The notes beneath the pieces were generated by a model, which had not been told where the DNA came from, made no database searches, and saw only the letters and a list, made by a program, of their open reading frames with translations. A stretch of 64,000 bases of DNA from assembly GCA_947034885.2 (NCBI GenBank), contig OX344755.2, positions 25,303,052 to 25,367,051 of the forward strand, read 5' to 3'. Shown here piece by piece: positions 9,700 to 64,000 of this stretch. Position 1 is the first letter of the stretch. Each line of letters begins with the position of its first letter. The DNA comes from Thuidium tamariscinum. Lineage: Eukaryota; Streptophyta; Bryopsida; Hypnales; Thuidiaceae. Made by a program: the position numbers and the translations under genes.

Positions 9700-11400
9700 G
9701 AGGTGGTAAAGGTAGCAAAAATTTGGGTGAAAATTTGTAGATGTTGTAATGAGTTGATTGCACATTGATTTGATTGGTATAGATGGTGAGAATTTGGAGA
9801 TCACAAATGCTAGAGTGAATTGATTGAATACAACATGGAATTGATAGATAAAAGTGGTGAAAATCAGGGTGATTGTAAATGCTACAATGAGTTGATTGAA
9901 CAAAGAATGATTTGATTGATAAAGGTAAAGAGAATTCGGGTGATTATAAATGCTATAGTGAATTGATTGAATACATCACATATTTGATTGGTAATTAAAA
10001 GTGGTGAGAAGTCAGGGATTCATAGGTGTTGTAGTGAGTTGATTGAACATAGCGATTTGATTGGTAATGATTGTGAGAATTTGGACAATTACAAATGCTA
10101 CAATGAGTTGATTGAGTACATCATGGATTTGATTATTAGAGGTGGTGAGAATATGGGTGGTCATAAAATATTCATTTTTCATTGTAGATGCTACAATGAA
10201 TTGATTGAACACAATACAAATTTGATTGATAAATGTAGTGAGAATTTTGGTAATTGCAAATGATGCTATGAGTTGATTGAATATGTTAATTTGATTGGTA
10301 AAGATGGTGAGAGAAATTGAGGGATCACAAATGTTGTAGTAAATTATTAAGCACAATAATAATTTAATTGGTAAAGATAGTGAGAATTCAGAGGATCATA
10401 GAGGCTATCATGAGTTGATTGAATACAACACATACTTGATTGGTAAATGAGGTGGTGAGAATGTGGGTGAGAATTTGTTGATGTTGTAGTGAATTGATTG
10501 GATACAAAGATTTGATTGGTAAAAATGGTGAAAATTTGGGTGAAAAATTTGTGGATGTTGTAGTGAATTGATTGTGTACAAAGATTTGATTGAACACAGT
10601 GATTTGATTGAAAAAGGTGGTGAGCATTTGGTAATTACAAATACTACAATTAGGCAATTGAATATAACATTGATATGATTGGAAAAGGTAGTGAGAATTT
10701 GGGGATTATAGATACTACAATGAGTTGACTAAGTATAACATTGATTTGATTAGTAAAGGTTGTCAAAATTTGGAGAATCATAGATGCTATAGTGAATTGA
10801 TTGAACGCAAGATGGATTTGATTGGTAAAGGTTGTCAAAATTTAGAGAATTACAAATGCTACAGTGAATTGATTGAATGGAAGACGGATTTGATTGATAA
10901 AGGTTGTAAGAATTTAGAGAATCACAGATGCTATAGTGAATTGATTGAACGCAAGACGGATTTGATTGGTAAAGGTTGTAAGAATTTGGAGAATCGCAGA
11001 TGCTATAGTGAATTGATTGAATGTAAGACGGATTTGATTGGTAAAGGTTGTAAGAATTTAGAGAATCACAAATACTATAGTGAATTGATTGAACGCAAGA
11101 CGGATTTGATTGGTTAAGGTAGTGAAAATTGAAGTATTATAGATGCTATAGTCAGTGATTGAGGATAGTGATTCAATGATTGGTAAAGGTGGTGAGAATT
11201 TGGGAGACATAGATCATGCTACAATAAATTGATTGAGCGCAACATTGATTTAATTGGTAAAGGTGGTGCAAAATTAAATGATCTTAGATGTTACAATGAG
11301 CTAATTGAGTGCAATCTTGGTTTGATTGATAAATGTGGTGCAAATTTGGATGATCATAGATGTTGTAATGAGTTGATTGAATACAATATCAATTCAATTG
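9700..11400. repeat. 72-bp tandem array (~23 units), open on both strands in places
   Basis: A unit containing GAATTGATTGAA, GATTTGATTGGTAAAGG and GAGAATCACAAATGCTA repeats across 1.7 kb. Between 10791 and 11079 the same landmark recurs exactly every 72 bp and units are nearly identical; the left part is degenerate. Because 72 is a multiple of three, the clean part stays open for 130 codons (10725-11117, plus strand) as a 24-residue repeat with the core CYSELIERKTDLIGKGC. Frame breaks in flanking units and the open minus strand argue for a minisatellite rather than a gene, though a repeat protein is not excluded. Confidence 0.8.
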
Positions 11401-44989: not shown

Positions 44990-46710
44990 AGATATTCATT
45001 AGTAGAAATTCATTTAAAATGTCATTGACTAATTGCTTGTCATAAACTATGATTACTTATTACTATTAAATGACTTTGAGATGAATAGAAGGTTTCAAAT
45101 AGTCTATAGTGCAATTTTTTGCATTGAAGACGAGTAGGGCACCAAGCTGACGTGGATGGTAGTCATTTTTTAATTACTAATCAATAACTGTGTTTTACTA
45201 GTATGTAACTCTCAAATGACTACAAAGTCCCAAATTGATTAGAGTGTAATTTTTTGCACTAAAAAAGGTTAGGGCACCAAGTTGACGTCAATAGTGGGTG
45301 ATTGCAAGAAACAATTGTCCTATTTTGTGTCACACATTGCATGCTGATTTGTTTTTTGGCCATAACTTTTGTGTTTTAGCTTTAATTGACTCAAGATTTG
45401 TAGGGAAGGTACTCATAACTATTATAAACCTTCCGTAATTTTCTCATAATTTTCAAAAATATTTTATTATCCAAAAATGGACCCCAAAAGGATGTCACAC
45501 TTGGTAGTTTAGGGGTTTTTAGTACTAGGGAATACCTTTTTTCAACGATTTTAACATGAAATTTAGATGAGATGGTCTTCTAGTAGATTTATAGCTTTCC
45601 AAGGAAGGATTTTTAAAAATATATTTATTTTTATGTGGTGTGGAGGTCTACAAAGTGAGCTCCCTTCTGCTTGTATTTGAAACACATAAAATATTATTTT
45701 GGTGGATTTTTTGGTGAATTACCATCTCCATAAAGTTTTTGCAAATGGCTACTTTTTATTTTTTGAAAAAATATTTTTTTACTATTTTTCCCTAATTAAA
45801 ACACGAAGATATGTGTTTTTTTTGGAGGTTTGGCACTTTTCAAGATCTCCTACTTAGAGAATTTTTCTATCCATTTCCTTTGGTGAAAACCTTCATCTTA
45901 GAGGTATATATATTATTCATATTTTTAAAAAAAATTTAAAATTAATTTTTTAAATTTTAAAGTACTTCCGAAAAAATCAGCCAAATGCAACAAATAGGAC
46001 AGGTGTTTCTTGCAATCACCCTAGTAATCATTTTTTAATTACTAATCAATGACTATATTTTACTAGTTTGTGACTCTGAAATGATTGCAACGTCCTAGAT
46101 TGGCTAGAATATAATTTTTTGCACTGAAAAAGGTTAACAAACCAAGCTGATGTTGATGGCAATCATTTTTTAATTACTAATCAATGATAGTGTTTTACTA
46201 GTATGCAACTTTAAAATGACTACAAAGTCCCAAATTGATTAAAGTGTAATTTTTTGCACTAAAAAAGATTAGGGCACCAAGTTGATGTCGATGGTAATCA
46301 TTTTTTAATTACTAATCAATGACTGTATTTTACTAGTGTGCAACTCTAAAATGACTGCAAAGTCCTAAATAGGCTAGAGTGTCATTTTTTGTACTAAAAA
46401 AGTATGCGGCACCAAGTTGACGTGGATGGTAATCATTTTTTATTTACTAATCAATGACTGTGTTTTACTAGTATGCGACTTTAAAATGACTACAAAGTCC
46501 CAAATTGGCTAGGGTGTAATTTTTTGCACTAGAAAACGTTAGGGCACTAAGTTAACGTGGATAGTAGTCAATTTTGAATTACTAAAATCTGATTGCACAT
46601 TACTACTTTATGATTTTAAAATGATTACAAAGTCTTCATTAGACCATAGTACAATGTTTTGCAATTAAACAAGTAGGGCACTAAGCTAATATGGACAATA
46701 CTATTTCAAG
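44990..46710. repeat. 135-bp tandem array interrupted by a TIR element
   Basis: The landmark ACCAAGYTGAYGT recurs at 45141, 45276, 46141, 46276, 46411, 46546 and 46680. Spacing is 135 bp (once 134), except for one gap of 865 bp that equals 135 plus 730, the length of the TIR element copy with its 4-bp duplication. Each unit also carries TTTTTTAATTACTAATCAATGA and AAATGACTACAAAGTCCCAAA blocks. No coding frame crosses it. Confidence 0.88.
45296..46021 (+). mobile_element. GGGTGATTGC-TIR element, copy 3 (726 bp), in the 135-bp array
   Basis: The inverted ends are GGGTGATTGCAAGAAACA and TGTTTCTTGCAATCACCC. It is flanked by the 4-bp duplication TAGT (45292-45295 and 46022-46025). The neighbouring 135-bp units supply the empty site (TGGTAATCATTTTTTAATT or TAGTAGTCA), so the ends and the duplication are proven by comparison. 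The interior is collinear with the copies at 33483-34203 (inverse) and 48215-48915. There is no open frame. Confidence 0.92.
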
Positions 46711-50149: not shown

Positions 50150-50714
50150 TTGCAATTGCCTCAACAAAACTATAGAATGAGGAGGTTGTGGTGACTGCAT
50201 GGAAGACTATCTGACACTCAATTAATTAATGCAGGGTGAAAGCAAGCTAATAGGAGCCACAAGTGGACCTTAATGGACTTCTTTGGGTATTGGTTTTATT
50301 CCAAGGAGGTGCCACCTGAACATCATATTCATTAATTTGGGAGATTTGGAACCTCCCAAAATAATGTTGCCCATTTTGAAGTAGCAAAAATTAAATACAA
50401 CTTCATTTAATTGAAGTCGAAAAAGTCTTCATTTTTTAGGAGGAAATTGTACTTTTAATTGGAAAGACTGTTCCAAGCTAAAGAAGAGCAAGTTGCGTCT
50501 CTATTGCCCAACGAGAATGAAGAATCTGTTTAGGCGTGCTGTACATTTGAAGTAATGTTAGTATAGGTAGCAAGTTCTATCCTTACCAGTGCTTCTTGAA
50601 GGTTTAGAATATATGATACAAACTTGTAGCTCATAACTAAATAGCAGTCTATAATTATTAATATATGTATAACTTGGATTGTTGATCACCCCATTGAATT
50701 AGGGTATATTGTGA
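50150..50714. other. AT-rich intergenic DNA, nothing assigned
   Basis: No feature is supported. The flank of the tRNA-like sequence starts here. Confidence 0.4.
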
Positions 50715-51402: not shown

Positions 51403-54237
51403 TCAATCTGAATTGTATGAAGTCAAACTACCATTGATGACTTCAACTTGATTGGATGGGATCTTAAGGACACATTCTATTGTGTCCTTCTTCACCCTAG
51501 ACTTCCACGCTGTCACAAGAGAATTAGTGTTTTCCCAAACAGGATTTTGGGTCTCATCTACTTTCCAACGTAGTCCTTTCGTGGAGTCCCATCCATGATA
51601 GAAATCTTGAACATTTCTCTCTCGAGATGTAGGCCGAAAGTACTGAATCAATACACAATTAGGGTGATCAGCATTAGCAAAAGGATCAGACAAGGCCCTC
51701 GCAATCCATATTGGCTTCAAATCTCCATCAGCTGGTCGAACAGCAACAAAATATCCTTCGTAAAGATCACGTGCTACACGAAAAGATGGCAATGGGCGGT
51801 TACGAAGGTTTCCCACGAAAACTTCATCCTCAGCAAACTCCTCACGAACTTCACCATCATCATCAAGTTCGTCTTCTTCTGTAGTTTCTACTCGAGTAGT
51901 AGGCCAAAAACCATCCGTTAATGCTGCAGATGGTTCAATTGGCTCCTTCAAGGTTGCATTCACCGCTCGCCAATAGAACACCAAATGCTCAAAGCGTCTT
52001 CTATATTCTCCACTTCCGTCTTCATTGCATAATGTCTCCCAGTACTTAATGAACCCAGATAAACCCTTGTAAATGTCATCCAAGCTCCTCATTGGAAGGT
52101 GTACAACAGGGTTTGGCTCTCCTCGAGGCCATAGACTCCGCCCTTCAGAATCCTCACGCCACAATTTGATCCCCTCTTCCGGGAGCCAATCATTATCTGT
52201 GCAATAGAACTTATACTTCATAATTGGAACGCCTAGAGCATTGAGGTAGAACTTGAATTGTTGAGCCTTTGTATGTCCAACAAGCACATCATCCCCTCTA
52301 CACAAAGAGTCTTCAATGAAGGCTTTAAAGTCGGGCACCTCCTCGATGAGATGAGGAATTGTGGGCACCGAATCCACATCCATGAATGACTTCATGAGGG
52401 ATGGAATAGTAGGAAAATTTTCCTTCTTCAACTGCATACTCCACCTCCCAAACAAAGCGTCAATGTCATCATGAGTGTGACCAACCAACATGAAACTCAC
52501 ATAAACTTCCCGAAAAATTTTCTTCGCAACAAGAAGGGACCAAAATGCAAATACAAATCTGTTCTTGTTGTCTCCCGTTGCATTGTCCATTTGAACATTC
52601 AGAACTGGTGGGAGGGAAGTTCCAGCAACTGGAACTTCAGGCGCTGGCCGAAGTGAAGATTTGCAAATGTTTGATCCTTGAAGAACCGCGCGAAAAAGAG
52701 GAGCATTGCCAGATCCGGCGAACAATTCCCGTGACGAGTACTTTGGAGGAAGTTCAAGGTCCCGTAGAAGTTTTGCAAAGGATCCCACTGTATAGTTTGA
52801 ATCATGAAGAAAGATATCAAGACCATAATGTGCATAACGCACATCACCATGTCCATGTGCAATCATACCTGTCACAGAAATAGGAAGCTTCATAAGCCCG
52901 TCAAGTTGCTTGCTCTTATGCGAGAAGACTGGGGAGGCCGTCTTTGCATGATCCATTTTGTCATGCATGATTGTCAGACATTCATGAGGATAGGCGCTCG
53001 ATCTATACCGATTGGCATAATATTGGTCACGATGTGCACGAGCTGTAGCCAAATGCTTCTCCAAGAGATGCGTCCATTTGCGTTGCAAGCCAGTACAAGC
53101 TCCCCTTTTCAAAGTCTGCAATCTATCACATTTAGCGCAACGTGCAAAATTATCCCCGGGCTTTTTTGCATTGTATTGAGGGAAGTTCAACTTCCTAATC
53201 TTGCTGATATTCGAAGCCGACACTTCCTTCAATCCAAAAACAGCATTCGCTGCATTAACTTGTGGGATAGTCTCTTTCCACGTGAAATTGGCTGGCAAGA
53301 CCATAGACACCACCTTCTCTCCAGAAGGTAAAGTGTGTGTGCGATGAGGCATGTGGTCAGCAGACTTCTCTAACATGGACTTAAGTGTAGCTGTAGCTTG
53401 CAACGTATGATTTCGAGTCTTTAGCATGCCCAAATTACCGTGTGATTGAGCTTGCTCGCCTTTGTTAGCATATCCTTGAAAACGATGGAATGTGCTCTCT
53501 GAAACCCCCGAGATATGCCTCCATGCTGCCATACACACATCGATTCCGTTGATGGTAACTACCCTCTTCCCTTGAGCATCCCGATGCACTTGTCGATGAA
53601 CATCTAATTTCATGTGGTACCGGAATTCGAATGATGTCTTATGGTACATCCACTCACGGAAAGCCCGAATTTTGGCTCTTGGAAAAGGCTGGACACAATT
53701 GCTTGAGCAGCAGACCTTCGACGATACTGCATTGATTGACTCCTCAGTGAGAAGGCTTTTTGCCTTCACACAAGTTTGAGGAGGTGGATTCCTCACCAGA
53801 CTTGTATATGGTCTCCCACGTGGAGATGACGGCCGCAAGAGGTTAGCTTGCTGACAGTTGTATTTGAAACGGACCTCATGATCGTGAAGGCTTGCTCCAT
53901 CCAAATACACTTGCTCTATGGGCCACGCACGAAGAGAGTACTTCCATTCATCAGGAACATCTCTAGTATCTATAGACTTTGAGATTTGAACAGCCACAGA
54001 AGAATCACCTATGGGTCCATTGCAACCAAGGACTAGGTCGGAATTCACGCTGTGACAGATTCCTTCGGCAACAGGGAGACCGTGGTTATTGTATAAAGTG
54101 ACAACCTTAGTCATCCAAAGCGGTCGTGGGATACCTTCACATTCTGGGATGTCAACAATCGTCTCAACGATGTTCTCACGATCCCCTTCATCAGAGGAAT
54201 AGCCATGAGATAGAACCCCACCTGCCTCCATGATCAC
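51403..54237 (-). CDS. DUF7869-type protein, 944 residues, intact single exon
   Basis: This is the only long intact frame in the window. Near residue 547 it has QMDNATGDNKNRFVFAFW and near 580 LVGHTHDDIDALFGRWS. This pair of an Asp-Asn-rich strand and a His-Thr-His-Asp-Asp-Ile-Asp box is the signature of the family I recall as DUF7869, multi-copy in bryophytes, lycophytes, oomycetes and animals. The acidic boxes look like an RNase H-fold or DDE-type active site, so a transposon origin is plausible but inferred. Cys clusters lie near residue 175 (CCSSNC) and 366 (CAKC), possibly zinc-binding. An acidic stretch (TTEEDELDDDGEVREEFAED) comes after residue 775. No signal peptide or membrane segment is seen. 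The start MIMEAGG has two in-frame Met codons; the first is used here. An AG acceptor-like site (TATGTGTAG) directly precedes the ATG on the minus strand, so an upstream leader exon is likely. Confidence 0.9.
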   Translation of the reverse strand: MIMEAGGVLSHGYSSDEGDRENIVETIVDIPECEGIPRPLWMTKVVTLYNNHGLPVAEGICHSVNSDLVLGCNGPIGDSSVAVQISKSIDTRDVPDEWKYSLRAWPIEQVYLDGASLHDHEVRFKYNCQQANLLRPSSPRGRPYTSLVRNPPPQTCVKAKSLLTEESINAVSSKVCCSSNCVQPFPRAKIRAFREWMYHKTSFEFRYHMKLDVHRQVHRDAQGKRVVTINGIDVCMAAWRHISGVSESTFHRFQGYANKGEQAQSHGNLGMLKTRNHTLQATATLKSMLEKSADHMPHRTHTLPSGEKVVSMVLPANFTWKETIPQVNAANAVFGLKEVSASNISKIRKLNFPQYNAKKPGDNFARCAKCDRLQTLKRGACTGLQRKWTHLLEKHLATARAHRDQYYANRYRSSAYPHECLTIMHDKMDHAKTASPVFSHKSKQLDGLMKLPISVTGMIAHGHGDVRYAHYGLDIFLHDSNYTVGSFAKLLRDLELPPKYSSRELFAGSGNAPLFRAVLQGSNICKSSLRPAPEVPVAGTSLPPVLNVQMDNATGDNKNRFVFAFWSLLVAKKIFREVYVSFMLVGHTHDDIDALFGRWSMQLKKENFPTIPSLMKSFMDVDSVPTIPHLIEEVPDFKAFIEDSLCRGDDVLVGHTKAQQFKFYLNALGVPIMKYKFYCTDNDWLPEEGIKLWREDSEGRSLWPRGEPNPVVHLPMRSLDDIYKGLSGFIKYWETLCNEDGSGEYRRRFEHLVFYWRAVNATLKEPIEPSAALTDGFWPTTRVETTEEDELDDDGEVREEFAEDEVFVGNLRNRPLPSFRVARDLYEGYFVAVRPADGDLKPIWIARALSDPFANADHPNCVLIQYFRPTSRERNVQDFYHGWDSTKGLRWKVDETQNPVWENTNSLVTAWKSRVKKDTIECVLKIPSNQVEVINGSLTSYNSD

Positions 54238-54302: not shown

Positions 54303-54331
54303 GTCATTCAACTCGACTCGAGTTGAATGAC
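54303..54331. repeat. Palindrome P1, 14-bp perfect arms
   Basis: Arm GTCATTCAACTCGA, one centre base (C54317), then its exact complement. It lies about 70 bp upstream of the 944-residue start. Confidence 0.9.
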
Positions 54332-54720
54332 TTTTGAAATGAAAGTATTTCTTGTATTAACAAACGAGTCATATTCTTATATGATAGTCACCTCACTATT
54401 GATAATAAAATAGTGATCACATCGTGTTCCAAATCGACTAAGATTGTGAAGTACCACGTGCGTCTACTGAACTCAATCCAAACTCAGCTCAACTGTCAAT
54501 CAGAACGTTCTGAAGAAGTATCCCAGATACCTAACAACAATCTTATTAATCAGAAGTAGTTCTCGGAAAACGTAGACAAGTACATACTTATAGAAATCAA
54601 ACTTTTTTGAGAGGTAAATTATAGTCAAACAATGATAAATGGAATTCGAAAAAACATAAACAAAACATGCTATTCATTTCTGGAAACTCAGATATAAGAT
54701 CATCTGTACAATCACTGAAA

Positions 54721-54970
54721 ACGAATGCAACTAACTCAGAATTCCTATTGCCATATTCCCAGGATTGTACATTCAAGTCGAATGGAGTTGAATGTACATT
54801 ATTGGTAGCCAAGAACTATTGACCAGCATTCCAGATTACGATACCCATTACTCACATTAAACGGATGCAATTAACTCAGAATTCCTAATGTCATATTCCC
54901 CGGATTGTACATTCAAGTCGAATGGAGTTGAATGTACATTATTGGTAGCCAAGAACTATTGACCAACAAT
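54721..54970. repeat. 140-bp-offset direct duplication with palindromes P2 and P3
   Basis: GCAACTAACTCAGAATTCCT and GCAATTAACTCAGAATTCCT begin the two copies, which end CCAAGAACTATTGACC. Each contains the inverted repeat TGTACATTCAAGTC ... GAGTTGAATGTACA (54766-54798 and 54906-54938), a decayed form of the same palindrome. Confidence 0.85.
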
Positions 54971-55180
54971 CCCACTTACTATCTCAATACTCAGATTTCC
55001 AAATTATGAAGAGTGTGAAATCCAGAATCGGAAGCATCAAAGGCTGTTTTTCAGGTCAAATGGAGTTAAATACACATCCTCTGTATATGCGTTCTGAACG
55101 GAGTCACTAGGAAAATCCAGAAACACGTCTACTATACTGGAAGTATATTTCATGGACTGTAATGACTGTTGGACTGTACA

Positions 55181-55201
55181 TTCAAGTAGAGTCGAGTTGA
55201 A
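55181..55201. repeat. Palindrome P4
   Basis: TTCAAGTAGA, one base, TCGAGTTGAA: the right arm is intact and the left arm has two changes. Confidence 0.75.
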
Positions 55202-55335
55202 TATACACCTATCCTAAACTCATGAAGGATGTACGTAATTGGGTCTAACTCAGGTGTCGAATTAGCTCACTAAACTTCTGTTTATCTTATATAAGTAGTG
55301 ATGAATAAATTAATCGCATCTCAAATCCTCGTCAT

Positions 55336-55356
55336 TTCAACTCGAGTCGAGTTGAA
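55336..55356. repeat. Palindrome P5, perfect 10-bp arms
   Basis: TTCAACTCGA, centre G, then its exact complement. Same core as P1, P7 and P10. Confidence 0.9.
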
Positions 55357-56010: not shown

Positions 56011-56699
56011 ATTGTCAACGATAAGATTCTCTCGTTTTCAGGGATTTCTAATTAATGCGCATACTTTTCTTTCATTCGATTCCAGACTTCAATGGGGGAA
56101 TTTTCTATTTGTGAAAGTAGTTGGGAGCTCATCGCTACAATCCCTACTTGGATTTTCAGGCCCTCTTTTGGAGGAATGACTTTTGAGAAATGTAGGAATG
56201 TTCCGACGTTTTTTTAAGTATTCAGTGTACTGTAAAGTATCCAAAGCCCTATAATAAGTGGTTTAGGAGGAAACCTATATCTACAACAACAGTAGCCTTT
56301 ACGTATTTTACGTTTTGATTTTTCGAAGATTTCTAAATAGTAGTAAAGATCAGTGACCAAACAATTTGCTCACACGAACAGGCTTTTCAGTTTGGCAACG
56401 CATTAATATATTTAAGGAAGACGGTATATTGAACCGAAGTTTTAATTTTGGAATTTTTTTCCTTTTTCTTTAGACCCAAATTTGTAGATGCACTGAACCT
56501 TATTTGAATTCACTGACATCACTTTATTAGCGCTCGGTAGGAACAGCTCTCGTGGGGATGATGGGCGCGCTGAATTATACCTTTTAACCCCCCTTGAAAT
56601 TTTTTCTTTTTCGCATTTTTTCTTTTTTTTTCAAATTCAGAATTAAGATTCGAAATCAAAGACCCGAAATTAGCTTTGGAGACTCCAAACATACCCATA
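56011..56699. other. Intergenic DNA upstream of the minus-strand gene
   Basis: No gene is supported. Confidence 0.4.
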
Positions 56700-57350
56700 C
56701 AGTCAAACCTCGATAAGTGTTAAAACTCTATATGTGTTATGGAGTTTTTTGCTCCCTTCAAATGAAGAATAGTAATTGTTATGTGTTAAGTGTTACGCAA
56801 TGTCGCGCTCCTGACTTTGTTAATTTTACCTCGGTAAGTGATAAGTTTCCAATAAAAGGCTTTTTGTAAGAGCCATTGCTTAGAAGGAGATAATTTTGAG
56901 GTAAAGTAATAGTTTCTAGTTGCAAAGTCACTCTAGATGTCCGTTCTAAAAACTATAAGTAGAAGAGGTTGTAGGCTTTCAAGATGTAGGTAGTGCTCTT
57001 CAAACTTTGAAAAAGTTTTTGGAGCTAAGAACTAATGACACCATGTTATCTATTAGGAATATTGAAGCACTAGAAAAGGAAGTAGAATCTTGGCATGTAG
57101 TAGAAACTTGCCAAAGTACTATTGATTCATTCTTTCGACGGACTTAGATGAATAATGAATCAATATTTTATAATTTCATCCATTTTTTCTATAAATATTA
57201 CATATTTACCTTTTTTATTCTTCTAAGTATTATTTTTTATAAGTGTTATAAATCATCGGCATCACTCTCTATAAGTGTTATGTGTTACTAGTGTCTAAGT
57301 GTTAGCTAAAAGTATGCTCCCAACCCCTAACACTTATCGAGGTTTGATTG
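56700..57350 (+). mobile_element. pogo-like (Emigrant/Lemi-type) Tc1/mariner element, 651-bp deletion derivative
   Basis: The left end is CAGTCAAACCTCGATAAGTG and the right end CACTTATCGAGGTTTGATTG, a ~24-bp inverted repeat. TA flanks both sides (56698-56699 and 57351-57352). The end closely resembles published Emigrant/Lemi1 ends (CAGT.AAACCTC.ATAA). Inner copies of ATAAGTGTTATGTGTTA repeat near both ends. The interior keeps the last part of a transposase frame. Confidence 0.88.
56977..57147 (+). pseudogene. C-terminal fragment of a pogo-type transposase
   Basis: The frame reads FQDVGSALQTLKKFLELR, continues through a Leu- and Glu-rich helix (IEALEKEVESW) and ends TIDSFFRRT before TAG. Its position just inside the right end of a pogo-like element and its final T-I-D-x-F-F motif fit the tail of pogo/Tigger-type transposases. 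The DNA-binding and DDE domains are missing, so it cannot act as a transposase. Confidence 0.6.
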
Positions 57351-57352
57351 TA

Positions 57353-58639: not shown

Positions 58640-60592
58640 CAAAATTAAAACTAGTGAAGTCATAATCACTCAATTCAAATAAGTATTCAATTTGGAGTGT
58701 CCTAAGACTTGAAAACTTCTACCTATTTTTTGGCCTTGTATTGACGTGAAATTAATGACATTGGGGGCATTTTGATTTCGAATTAGAAATGGTAGTGCGG
58801 TCTATTTTCTTCTTTCTCAATTGAAATTGTTCAATTAGCGATCATTTGATTCAAATTAGTGTTCAATTTAGAGTGCCCTAACACTTCATAACTTTCACCT
58901 TTATTTTTTGGCACCCTTGGACATGGAATTTATGACATTGGAGGCATTTTGATTTCCATTAAAAAAATGGCAGTGTGGTCTATTTTTTTTCCTAAATTAA
59001 AATTAATCAATTAGCGGTTAGTTAATTCAAATTAGTGTTGAATGTAGAGTTCCCTAAGACTTTGAAACTTTCACCTAATTCTTTTGGCTTTTATTGACGT
59101 GAAATTCATGACATTAGAAGGATTTTGATTTCCATAGAAAAATGGCAGTGCGGTCTATTTCCTTTTTTCTCAATTGAAATTGATACATTAGCGGGGATTT
59201 CATTCAAAGTAGTGTTCAATTTAGAGTGTCCTAAAACTTTGTAGCTTTCGCCTACTCTTCTAGCACTGTTGGAGGTGAAATTCATGACATTGGACGGATT
59301 TTGACTTCCATAGAGAAAATGGCATTGTAGTCTATTCTTTTTCTCTCAATTGAAATTGGTCAATTAGCAGACATTTAATTCCAGTTGGTGTTCAAATAAG
59401 ACTGTCCTACATCTCTAGAACTTTCAACTATTTATCGTGACACCCTTTGAAATGAAATTCACATCATTGGAGGCATTTTGATTTCCATAGATAAATAACG
59501 GGAGCCCTGTATTTAAACAAAATAAAAATTGAAATTGGTGAATTAGCGGACATTTGATTCAAATTAGTGTTGGATTTAGGGTGTCCTAGGACTTTAGAAC
59601 TTTCACCTATTTTTTTTGTTTTTATTGACGTGAAATTCATGACATTCTTGGCATTTTGATTTCCATGGAGAAAATGGCAGTGTAGTCGATTTATTCTATT
59701 CAAATTGAAATTGGTCAATTAGAGGGCATTTGATTCAAATTAGTGTTGGATTTAGGGTGTCCTAGGACTTTAGAACTTTCACCTTTTTTTTTTTGTTTTT
59801 ATTGACGTGAAATTCATGACATTCTTGGCATTTTGATTTCCATGGAGAAAATGGCAGTGTAGTCGATTTATTCTATTCAAATTGAACTTGGTCAATTAGA
59901 GGGCATTTGATTCAAATTAGTGTTGGATTTAGGGTGTCCTAGGACTTTAGAACTTTCACCTTTTTTTTTTTGTTTTTATTGACGTGAAATTCATGACATT
60001 CTTGGCATTTTGATTTCCATGGAGAAAATGGCAGTGTAGTCGATTTATTCTATTCAAATTGAACTTGGTCAATTAGAGGGCATTTGATTCAAATTAGTGT
60101 TGGATTTAGGGTGTCCTAGGACTTTAGAACTTTCACCTTTTTTTTTTTGTTTTTATTGACGTGAAATTCATGACATTCTTGGCATTTTGATTTCCATGGA
60201 GAAAATGGCAGTGTAGTCGATTTATTCTATTCAAATTGAACTTGGTCAATTAGAGGGCATTTGATTCAAATTAGTGTTGGATTTAGGGTGTCCTAGGACT
60301 TTAGAACTTTCACCCTTTTTTTTTTGTTTTTATTGACGTGAAATTCATGACATTCTTGGCATTTTGATTTCCATGGAGAAAATGGCAGTGTAGTGGATTT
60401 ATTCTATTCAAATTGAAATTGGTCAATTAGAGGGCATTTGATTCAAATTAGTGTTGGATTTAGGGTGTCCTAGGACTTTAGAACTTTCACCTATTTTTTT
60501 TTGTTTTTATTGACGTGAAATTCATGACATTCTTGGCATTTTGATTTCCATGGAGAAAATGGCAGTGTAGTCGATTTATTCTATTCCAATTT
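58640..60592. repeat. 177-bp satellite array, 11 units
   Basis: The landmark TTAGTGTTGGATTTAGGG recurs at 59571, 59747, 59924, 60101, 60278 and 60455 (measured at TGGATTT), a period of 176-177 bp with near-identical units. To the left (about 58640-59520) five diverged units of 177-180 bp carry AGTGTTCAATTTAGAG, TTGACGTGAAATTCATGACATT and GGAAAATGGCAGTG-like blocks. The right edge is sharp at about 60592. The unit size is that of plant satellites. No coding frame crosses it. Confidence 0.92.
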
Positions 60593-63176: not shown

Positions 63177-63226
63177 TTCAACTCGATCAATGTCCATTCA
63201 ACTCGAGAAATGTAAATTCAACTCGA
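63177..63226 (+). repeat. Three palindrome half-sites at an exact 20-bp period
   Basis: TTCAACTCGA occurs at 63177, 63197 and 63217, each preceded by A, in the same orientation. Spacers differ in sequence but not in length. Confidence 0.85.
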
Positions 63227-63290: not shown

Positions 63291-63311
63291 TTCAACTCGA
63301 TTCGAGTTGAA
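63291..63311. repeat. Palindrome P7, perfect 10-bp arms
   Basis: TTCAACTCGA, centre T, then its exact complement. Confidence 0.9.
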
Positions 63312-63370: not shown

Positions 63371-63391
63371 TTCAACTCGATTCGAGCTGAA
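63371..63391. repeat. Palindrome P8
   Basis: TTCAACTCGA, centre T, TCGAGCTGAA: one mismatch in the right arm. Its left edge is exactly 80 bp from P7. Confidence 0.85.
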
Positions 63392-63406: not shown

Positions 63407-63427
63407 ATCAACTCGACTCGAGTTGAA
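63407..63427. repeat. Palindrome P9
   Basis: ATCAACTCGA, centre C, TCGAGTTGAA: nine of ten arm pairs intact. Confidence 0.85.
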
Positions 63428-63559: not shown

Positions 63560-63580
63560 TTCAACTCGAATCGAGTTGAA
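63560..63580. repeat. Palindrome P10, perfect 10-bp arms
   Basis: TTCAACTCGA, centre A, then its exact complement. Confidence 0.9.
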
Positions 63581-63678: not shown

Positions 63679-63699
63679 TTCAACTTCAATCGAGTTGAA
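63679..63699. repeat. Palindrome P11
   Basis: TTCAACTTCA, centre A, TCGAGTTGAA. It lies 50 bp upstream of the ATG at 63749. Confidence 0.8.
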
Positions 63700-63748: not shown

Positions 63749-64000
63749 ATGGAGGAGCAAGTGAAGAAACTCCAGGCGCTTTACCAAAGATATACGATTC
63801 CAGAGGATGAGAAGGAGGAACTTGGAGATGAAGAAACGTTAGGGGATTGTTGGACATGGCTGGAACCACAGAACGTGGAATACTGGACCATAGTTCTTGT
63901 CCCCATGACAAACCATCTGGCGTTCAGAACCAAATTTAAGGGCTCCTCAGCAACTCTTCCGGTCTCCCTCACAGAATCCATAACTGAGTTTACCATCTCA
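63749..64000 (+). CDS. Start of a coding exon, truncated by the window end (84 codons so far)
   Basis: The frame is open from ATG 63749 to the last base. It begins MEEQVKKLQALYQRYTIPED, an acidic, helix-forming N terminus, then carries a Trp-rich stretch (GDCWTWLEPQNVEYWTIVLV) and a mixed strand-like part. A strong acceptor-like site (ATATGTTTTCCAG at about 63734-63746) sits two bases before the ATG, so a leader intron probably ends here. Codon use and GC are gene-like compared with the AT-rich surroundings. I do not recognise the family. Together with the GC-rich leader upstream it probably forms a real gene that continues to the right. Confidence 0.6.
   Translation, partial: MEEQVKKLQALYQRYTIPEDEKEELGDEETLGDCWTWLEPQNVEYWTIVLVPMTNHLAFRTKFKGSSATLPVSLTESITEFTIS

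Follow-up and report, generated by a model that had tools for sequence, protein, structure and literature searches.

Two clusters of 21 bp palindromes, each palindrome composed of two 10 bp arms around a single free centre base (TTCAACTCGANTCGAGTTGAA), were found in a 64,000 nt stretch of the Thuidium tamariscinum genome (contig OX344755.2, positions 25,303,052 to 25,367,051; hereafter the window, numbered from its first base). Both clusters sit within a DNA transposon of 21,084 bp, which begins at 50319 and, with the window numbering continued past the window end, finishes at 71402. These dyads are probably the cis-acting sites of a sequence-specific DNA-binding regulator encoded by the transposon itself, for which the product of the second of its genes (gene 2) appears the best candidate.

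An earlier note on this sequence had described five palindromes just before a 944-residue gene, the outer two perfect and the first having 14 bp arms. All five are present, with these properties, and they precede a minus strand open reading frame (ORF) encoding a DUF7869 protein of that length; the other three have two mismatches to TTCAACTCGANTCGAGTTGAA. However, the sites at 54772 and 54912 share one tandem duplication and hence are not independent, whilst a second cluster in the same window, around 8 kb away, had been missed. The sites, with the dyads given without strand, are as follows:

54307..54327: dyad 1, perfect, centre C, 14 bp arms
54772..54792: dyad 2, two mismatches
54912..54932: dyad 3, two mismatches
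55181..55201: dyad 4, two mismatches
55336..55356: dyad 5, perfect, centre G
63291..63311: dyad 6, perfect, centre T
63371..63391: dyad 7, one mismatch
63407..63427: dyad 8, one mismatch
63560..63580: dyad 9, perfect, centre A
63679..63699: dyad 10, two mismatches
65202, 66739 and 68012 (window numbering continued): dyads 11, 12 and 13, the first two in inferred introns of gene 2 and the last 16 nt past its stop codon
54712-54842 / 54852-54982, plus strand: tandem duplication containing dyads 2 and 3, 131 nt, 89% identical
63177, 63197 and 63217 (span 63177..63226), plus strand: three direct half-sites TTCAACTCGA at 20 bp spacing

A degenerate sixth site, with 5 mismatches, lies in the first cluster at ~55050-55070. 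Ten sites with three or fewer mismatches are found in the 64 kb window, whereas 100 shuffles that preserved dinucleotide content gave 0.01 on average, which places the palindromes far beyond chance; every exact copy of the half-site in the window falls inside the two clusters. The genome-wide search that the earlier note had proposed, allowing two mismatches, returned 292 places, compared with a single one when the pattern was reversed as a control (363 Mb, 19 contigs). The sites inspected individually, which were perfect matches on the first contigs among the matches listed and form a part of the 292, lie in the 21 kb transposon or its relatives. To the letter, this is the occurrence within one long repeat that the earlier note had thought would undermine a selected site; however, copying of a single repeat is insufficient to explain the many internal places that the dyads occupy, or the distinct spellings found in related families.

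The principal features of the transposon are:

50319..50342, plus strand: left terminal inverted repeat, 24 bp (AACATCATATTCATTAATTTGGGA), following the target duplication CCTG
51403..54237, minus strand: gene 1, 944 aa ORF, Pfam DUF7869 (PF25273), E 1e-43
63749-65188, 65323-66675 and 66881-67996, plus strand: inferred exons of gene 2, 1302 aa in a clean frame, of which the window holds 63749..64000
68631-69584 (L005:4631-5584): third gene region, with an NIF-type domain (NLI-interacting factor, CTD phosphatase type; PF03031, E 3.3e-9)

The right terminal inverted repeat, a perfect inverse of the left 24 bp, ends at 71402, outside the window, such that the termini read AACATC...GATGTT. Target duplications of 4 bp (CCTG, CAAT, ACCC and TTGG) are found in four of the five copies of which both ends were read; in the fifth, copy C3, the flanks differ, being TTTT and ATTT. 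Seven copies were compared, namely that of the window and six others, and outside the tandem array and inserts most of the aligned stretches share 95 to 99.4% identity, some of those from copy C7b being as low as 92%. These features mark the element as a DNA transposon of the cut-and-paste type that has been active recently. The dyads occupy homologous places in all seven copies, and C7b has a third dyad of the tandem type represented by dyads 2 and 3. All 13 dyads of the element fall outside the inferred coding sequence: five lie before gene 1, five before the divergently oriented gene 2, two in the GT-AG introns separating the three gene 2 exons, and one after the gene 2 stop codon. The dyads are separated from the element ends by about 4.0 kb on one side and 3.4 kb on the other, with no dyad within 3.3 kb of either. 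By eye, the start codons of both genes follow a splice acceptor-like AG, and so part of each cluster may be 5' intron.

Also within the transposon spacer is a tandem array of about 11 units of 177 bp (58673-60591), the length of which seems to vary among copies. At 56698-57352, a pair of 25 bp inverted repeats (96% identical) lie 605 nt apart with TA at both ends, making this a candidate Tc1/mariner-type miniature inverted-repeat element nested in the larger one. The NIF domain region is a candidate captured host gene or accessory gene.

Conservation is concentrated in the arms of the dyads. Amongst the seven copies, six of 220 arm columns are variable, whereas in the remainder of these segments 167 of 1730 columns are (Fisher p 2e-4); this count covers 11 of the 13 dyads, with gapped columns (and one dyad containing them) dropped, and the comparison columns include a few exon bases. 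When the window element is compared with two diverged relatives over 10 site comparisons, with gaps scored as differences, 180 of 200 arm positions are identical, as are 822 of 1199 in other non-coding DNA (p 2e-11), whilst the centre base is unlike in six of the 10. The dyad at 63407 has been lost in relative L025, and that in intron 2 is degenerate in relative L026 (16/20). These results bear out the suggestion of the earlier note that the arms of a two-fold symmetric site, such as a dimeric DNA-binding protein would use, are under selection around a free centre, the four perfect dyads of the window having each of C, G, T and A at this position. Across 42 distinct sites, representing four spellings and picked by similarity to each, only two changed base pairs are compensated, against 55 that are not. 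Conserved arms, a free centre and rare compensation together indicate a DNA site rather than an RNA hairpin, as it is the letters that are kept and not the pairing. Relative L025 also has an insert of ~3.7 kb (L025:3800-7494) in gene 2 exon 1, which has no match to the window element and is flanked by dyads.

The DUF7869 gene gave at least 48 scored matches out of 951 candidates in the genome, most being either 81-100% identical to gene 1 (with one group near 84%) or 65-66% identical. The upstream DNA of six gene 1 copies from these other groups was examined, and all six have dyads of the same form, with 10 bp arms and one centre base, spelled in different letters from those of the window element (family A):

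Family B dyad: TTCAAGTmGA/TCTACTTGAA, two of two copies
Family C dyad: TTTAGGTCGA, three of three copies
Family C1 dyad: ATCAGCTCGA, one of one copy
Dyad sequences listed across families: TTCAACTCGANTCGAGTTGAA (window element), TTCAAGTAGANTCTACTTGAA, TTTAGGTCGANTCGACCTAAA and ATCAGCTCGANTCGAGCTGAT

When the four motifs were compared with seven upstream regions at up to two mismatches, each region held between 2 and 6 matches to its own motif, and the other motifs were absent except for one B-like site in A; at three mismatches, two A-like matches appear in each B region and one in C1. With 2 sites, C11, which belongs to the C group, is a weak case. Palindromes counted irrespective of spelling, at up to one mismatch, are weak evidence alone, numbering 2 in A and 1 in C11 (null maximum 2 for each; 300 shuffles each); the strength in these two regions lies in the shared spelling and not in the palindrome count. 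Upstream alignments find nothing between A and C and only the dyads between A and B, the exception being a 25 base match between A and C1 at a dyad, whilst the C copies are related to one another. Genome-wide, motif C occurs at 789 places against 1 for its control.

Gene 2 is found next to gene 1, in divergent orientation, at no fewer than 22 loci across three groups, as counted by eye. One B and one C copy were read through gene 2, and each has six dyads upstream and two in the inferred first intron, all in the spelling of their own family, with no foreign spelling at up to three mismatches; in family B, several of the dyads in the gene 2 region have 9 bp arms around ATA instead of 10 bp arms. 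Between A and B, gene 2 is 54% identical whereas gene 1 is 84.1% identical, and between A and C2 the values are 37-42% and 66% respectively. As judged from these identities, gene 2 is evolving faster than the DUF7869 gene.

A modest-confidence structure model of gene 2 residues 300-426, in exon 1, has a ParB/sulfiredoxin fold, and in a comparison with the PDB the top 13 rows are all ParB relatives. Hence exon 1 is predicted to contain a ParB/sulfiredoxin-type domain; the confident part of the model does not extend to the helix-turn-helix region. Sequence profiles did not detect it: a 290 aa piece had no match in Pfam, NCBIfam or PHROGs up to E 10, and the whole protein had no significant match in Pfam. 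The nucleotide-binding P motif of the ParB family is described as being of GxxR type (PMC12704722). A candidate in gene 2 is NGQH(S/T), the letters of which are not canonical, and this is kept in the stop-free A2 rows covering that stretch; two other gene 2 copies have a stop at this codon.

The ParB fold is found in bacterial proteins which, acting as dimers, recognise palindromes arranged in clusters, and on the basis of the model we suggest that the gene 2 protein reads the dyads. A dimer would load at these sites, might then spread in the manner of ParB clamps, and would control the promoters of both element genes, with the family-specific spelling confining each regulator to copies of its own family. 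By analogy, anti-silencing, in which the non-coding DNA of the element would be kept open against host silencing in a VANC-like manner, is slightly favoured over KorB-like auto-repression, since the sites also lie in introns and past a stop codon and not upstream alone. It is possible, if on balance doubtful, that this represents a complete ParB-parS-like module in a eukaryotic transposon, loading at 21 bp sites, spreading against silencing and having at least four non-cross-reacting specificity groups in one genome.

The earlier note had proposed the DUF7869 protein as the binder. This putative transposase might use the dyads as transposition or promoter sites, like the subterminal repeats bound by CACTA TnpA; its gene adjoins the first cluster and occurs in each family, and in soybean the CACTA motifs diversify along with transposase subfamilies (PMC2613891). 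However, the dyads are wrongly placed within the element for subterminal transposase sites, and two of them are in inferred introns of gene 2. Furthermore, the dyads of A and B differ despite the similarity of gene 1 between these families, whilst gene 2 has diverged to a much greater extent. The divergent neighbour with a predicted ParB-like fold is the better fit, and so the DUF7869 protein, though a possible binder, becomes the second choice and an unlikely one. Dyads are often bound by host factors, and the sites lie upstream of both genes, as they would if the transposon exploited those of a host transcription factor. Nevertheless, four spellings occur at the same places in related families of one genome, and are nearly exclusive at up to two mismatches, whereas a single factor would draw all of them towards one spelling; we consider this reading very unlikely.

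The earlier note had also raised the prospect of a hairpin acting in RNA, which, like a cruciform, might for instance trigger or avoid processing. Perfect inverted repeats, and intronic dyads that would be transcribed, are what such a role would entail; yet the excess of uncompensated changes, the direct half-sites at 20 bp spacing and the location of 10 of the 13 sites upstream of the two start codons (part of which may be 5' intron) make it extremely unlikely. Functionless recent spread, whether of the minute mobile palindrome that the earlier note envisaged or through tandem duplication, would account for the origin of dyads 2 and 3 and the third such unit of C7b, for the TGTACA-type flanks common to dyads 2, 3 and 4, and for the 91% match over 34 nt, in inverted orientation, between dyads 5 and 6. 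Against this, no target duplications were seen by eye around the palindromes, which are homologous in position across the seven copies; the clusters, once the dyads are masked, align at chance level (score 23; null median 21, 95% 26); the alignments between families are confined to dyads or absent, save amongst the C copies; and in diverged relatives the arms have changed less than the DNA around them while the centres vary freely. Hence mere spread is most improbable, and regulation by the gene 2 protein remains the preferred explanation.

DUF7869 is the sole Pfam match of gene 1. In five aligned DUF7869 proteins, aspartates in the HDKMD, VQMDN and HTHDDID blocks are invariant, which by eye hints at a DDD transposase like that of Sola elements. 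A structure prediction from the single sequence was uninformative (pLDDT 34), searches of phages, viral contigs and PDB sequences gave no significant match to the protein (best PDB E 0.2), and no mention of DUF7869 was found in the literature searched; nor did the window dyad have an exact match in viral contigs.

The element probably belongs to the Sola superfamily, on the basis that its 4 bp duplications, inverted ends and size class agree with descriptions of that group. Sola transposons are reported to have 4 bp duplications and inverted ends, can exceed 15 kb and are present in Physcomitrella (PMC10741241, PMC9033089), and their terminal inverted repeats range from 11 to 1124 bp (PMC10741241), a range that includes the identical 24 bp repeats found here. 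CACTA/CMCT elements are described as having 5'-CA..TG-3' termini in most cases (PMC12730594); the termini of the present element do not fit CMCT/Lanisha, although its 4 bp duplication would suit the 2-5 bp of CMCT, and the 7-8 bp duplications of KDZ elements do not match it.

Elsewhere in the window are tandem arrays of ~72 bp units (9738-11400) and ~135 bp units (46024-46634). A second palindrome type was considered and set aside, being an ordinary part of 2 kb dispersed repeats:

22196, 27020, 35308 and 38328: TTGGAATTAC type, 21 bp, inside the 2 kb dispersed repeats

In Arabidopsis, VANC proteins work at upstream and intron motifs and remove methylation, and the accounts of this system describe short family-specific motifs that are dense upstream of the genes of the element and in their introns, multiplication of these motifs through tandem duplication, and a motif and one element protein that diversify together, all of which are paralleled here (PMC5735166, PMC10398659). 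However, the VANC21 motif, YAGTATTAY, is nine bases long and in one orientation, in contrast to 21 bp dyads with a free centre, and the ParB fold predicted for gene 2 does not appear in the parts of those VANC descriptions consulted (PMC5735166, PMC10398659). The transposase also differs, being Mutator-type in VANDAL elements and a DUF7869 protein here; in Pfam, neither a VANC-type protein nor a Mutator-type transposase is matched by gene 1 (DUF7869 only) or gene 2 (nothing significant).

KorB of plasmid RK2 represses from operators both near and far, which precede the promoters they control by either 4-10 bp or anything from 45 bp to over 1,000 bp, like the present layout; it has the fold predicted here, as do ParB and Noc, and controls genes of its own replicon (PMC11790492). 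It is bacterial, uses 16 bp OB sites and has a demonstrated CTP-driven clamp. The CACTA TnpA system, including soybean Tgmt*, likewise has subfamily-specific repeated inverted motifs for which a protein of the element is the presumed reader, but in Tgmt* these are confined to the outermost 159 and 732 bp of the element rather than being internal, and the element has a 3 bp duplication and CACTA ends instead of 4 bp and AACATC (PMC2613891). Sola1-1_Ec32 of Ectocarpus (21.5 kb) is a large DNA transposon of the same size class, in which a ParB-like gene and the transposase are encoded on opposite strands (PMC12477816). Its ParB-like protein additionally includes a DNA methyltransferase domain, which Pfam does not find in gene 2, and binding sites do not feature in the portion of its description consulted, whereas candidate sites are mapped here.

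The individual parts of this system have precedents, but the combination of a ParB-like fold, 21 bp odd-centred dyads and at least four spellings in one genome was not found in the literature searched. Giant transposons of algae are already known to encode ParB-like proteins, which have been guessed to bind their own element (PMC12477816); the advance over the algal case is that candidate sites have been mapped, with conserved arms whose spelling changes between related families, alongside a partner gene that evolves fast. If this interpretation is true, the transposon would have orthogonal ParB-type specificities, and self-recognition may have arisen independently of that mediated by VANC in Arabidopsis.
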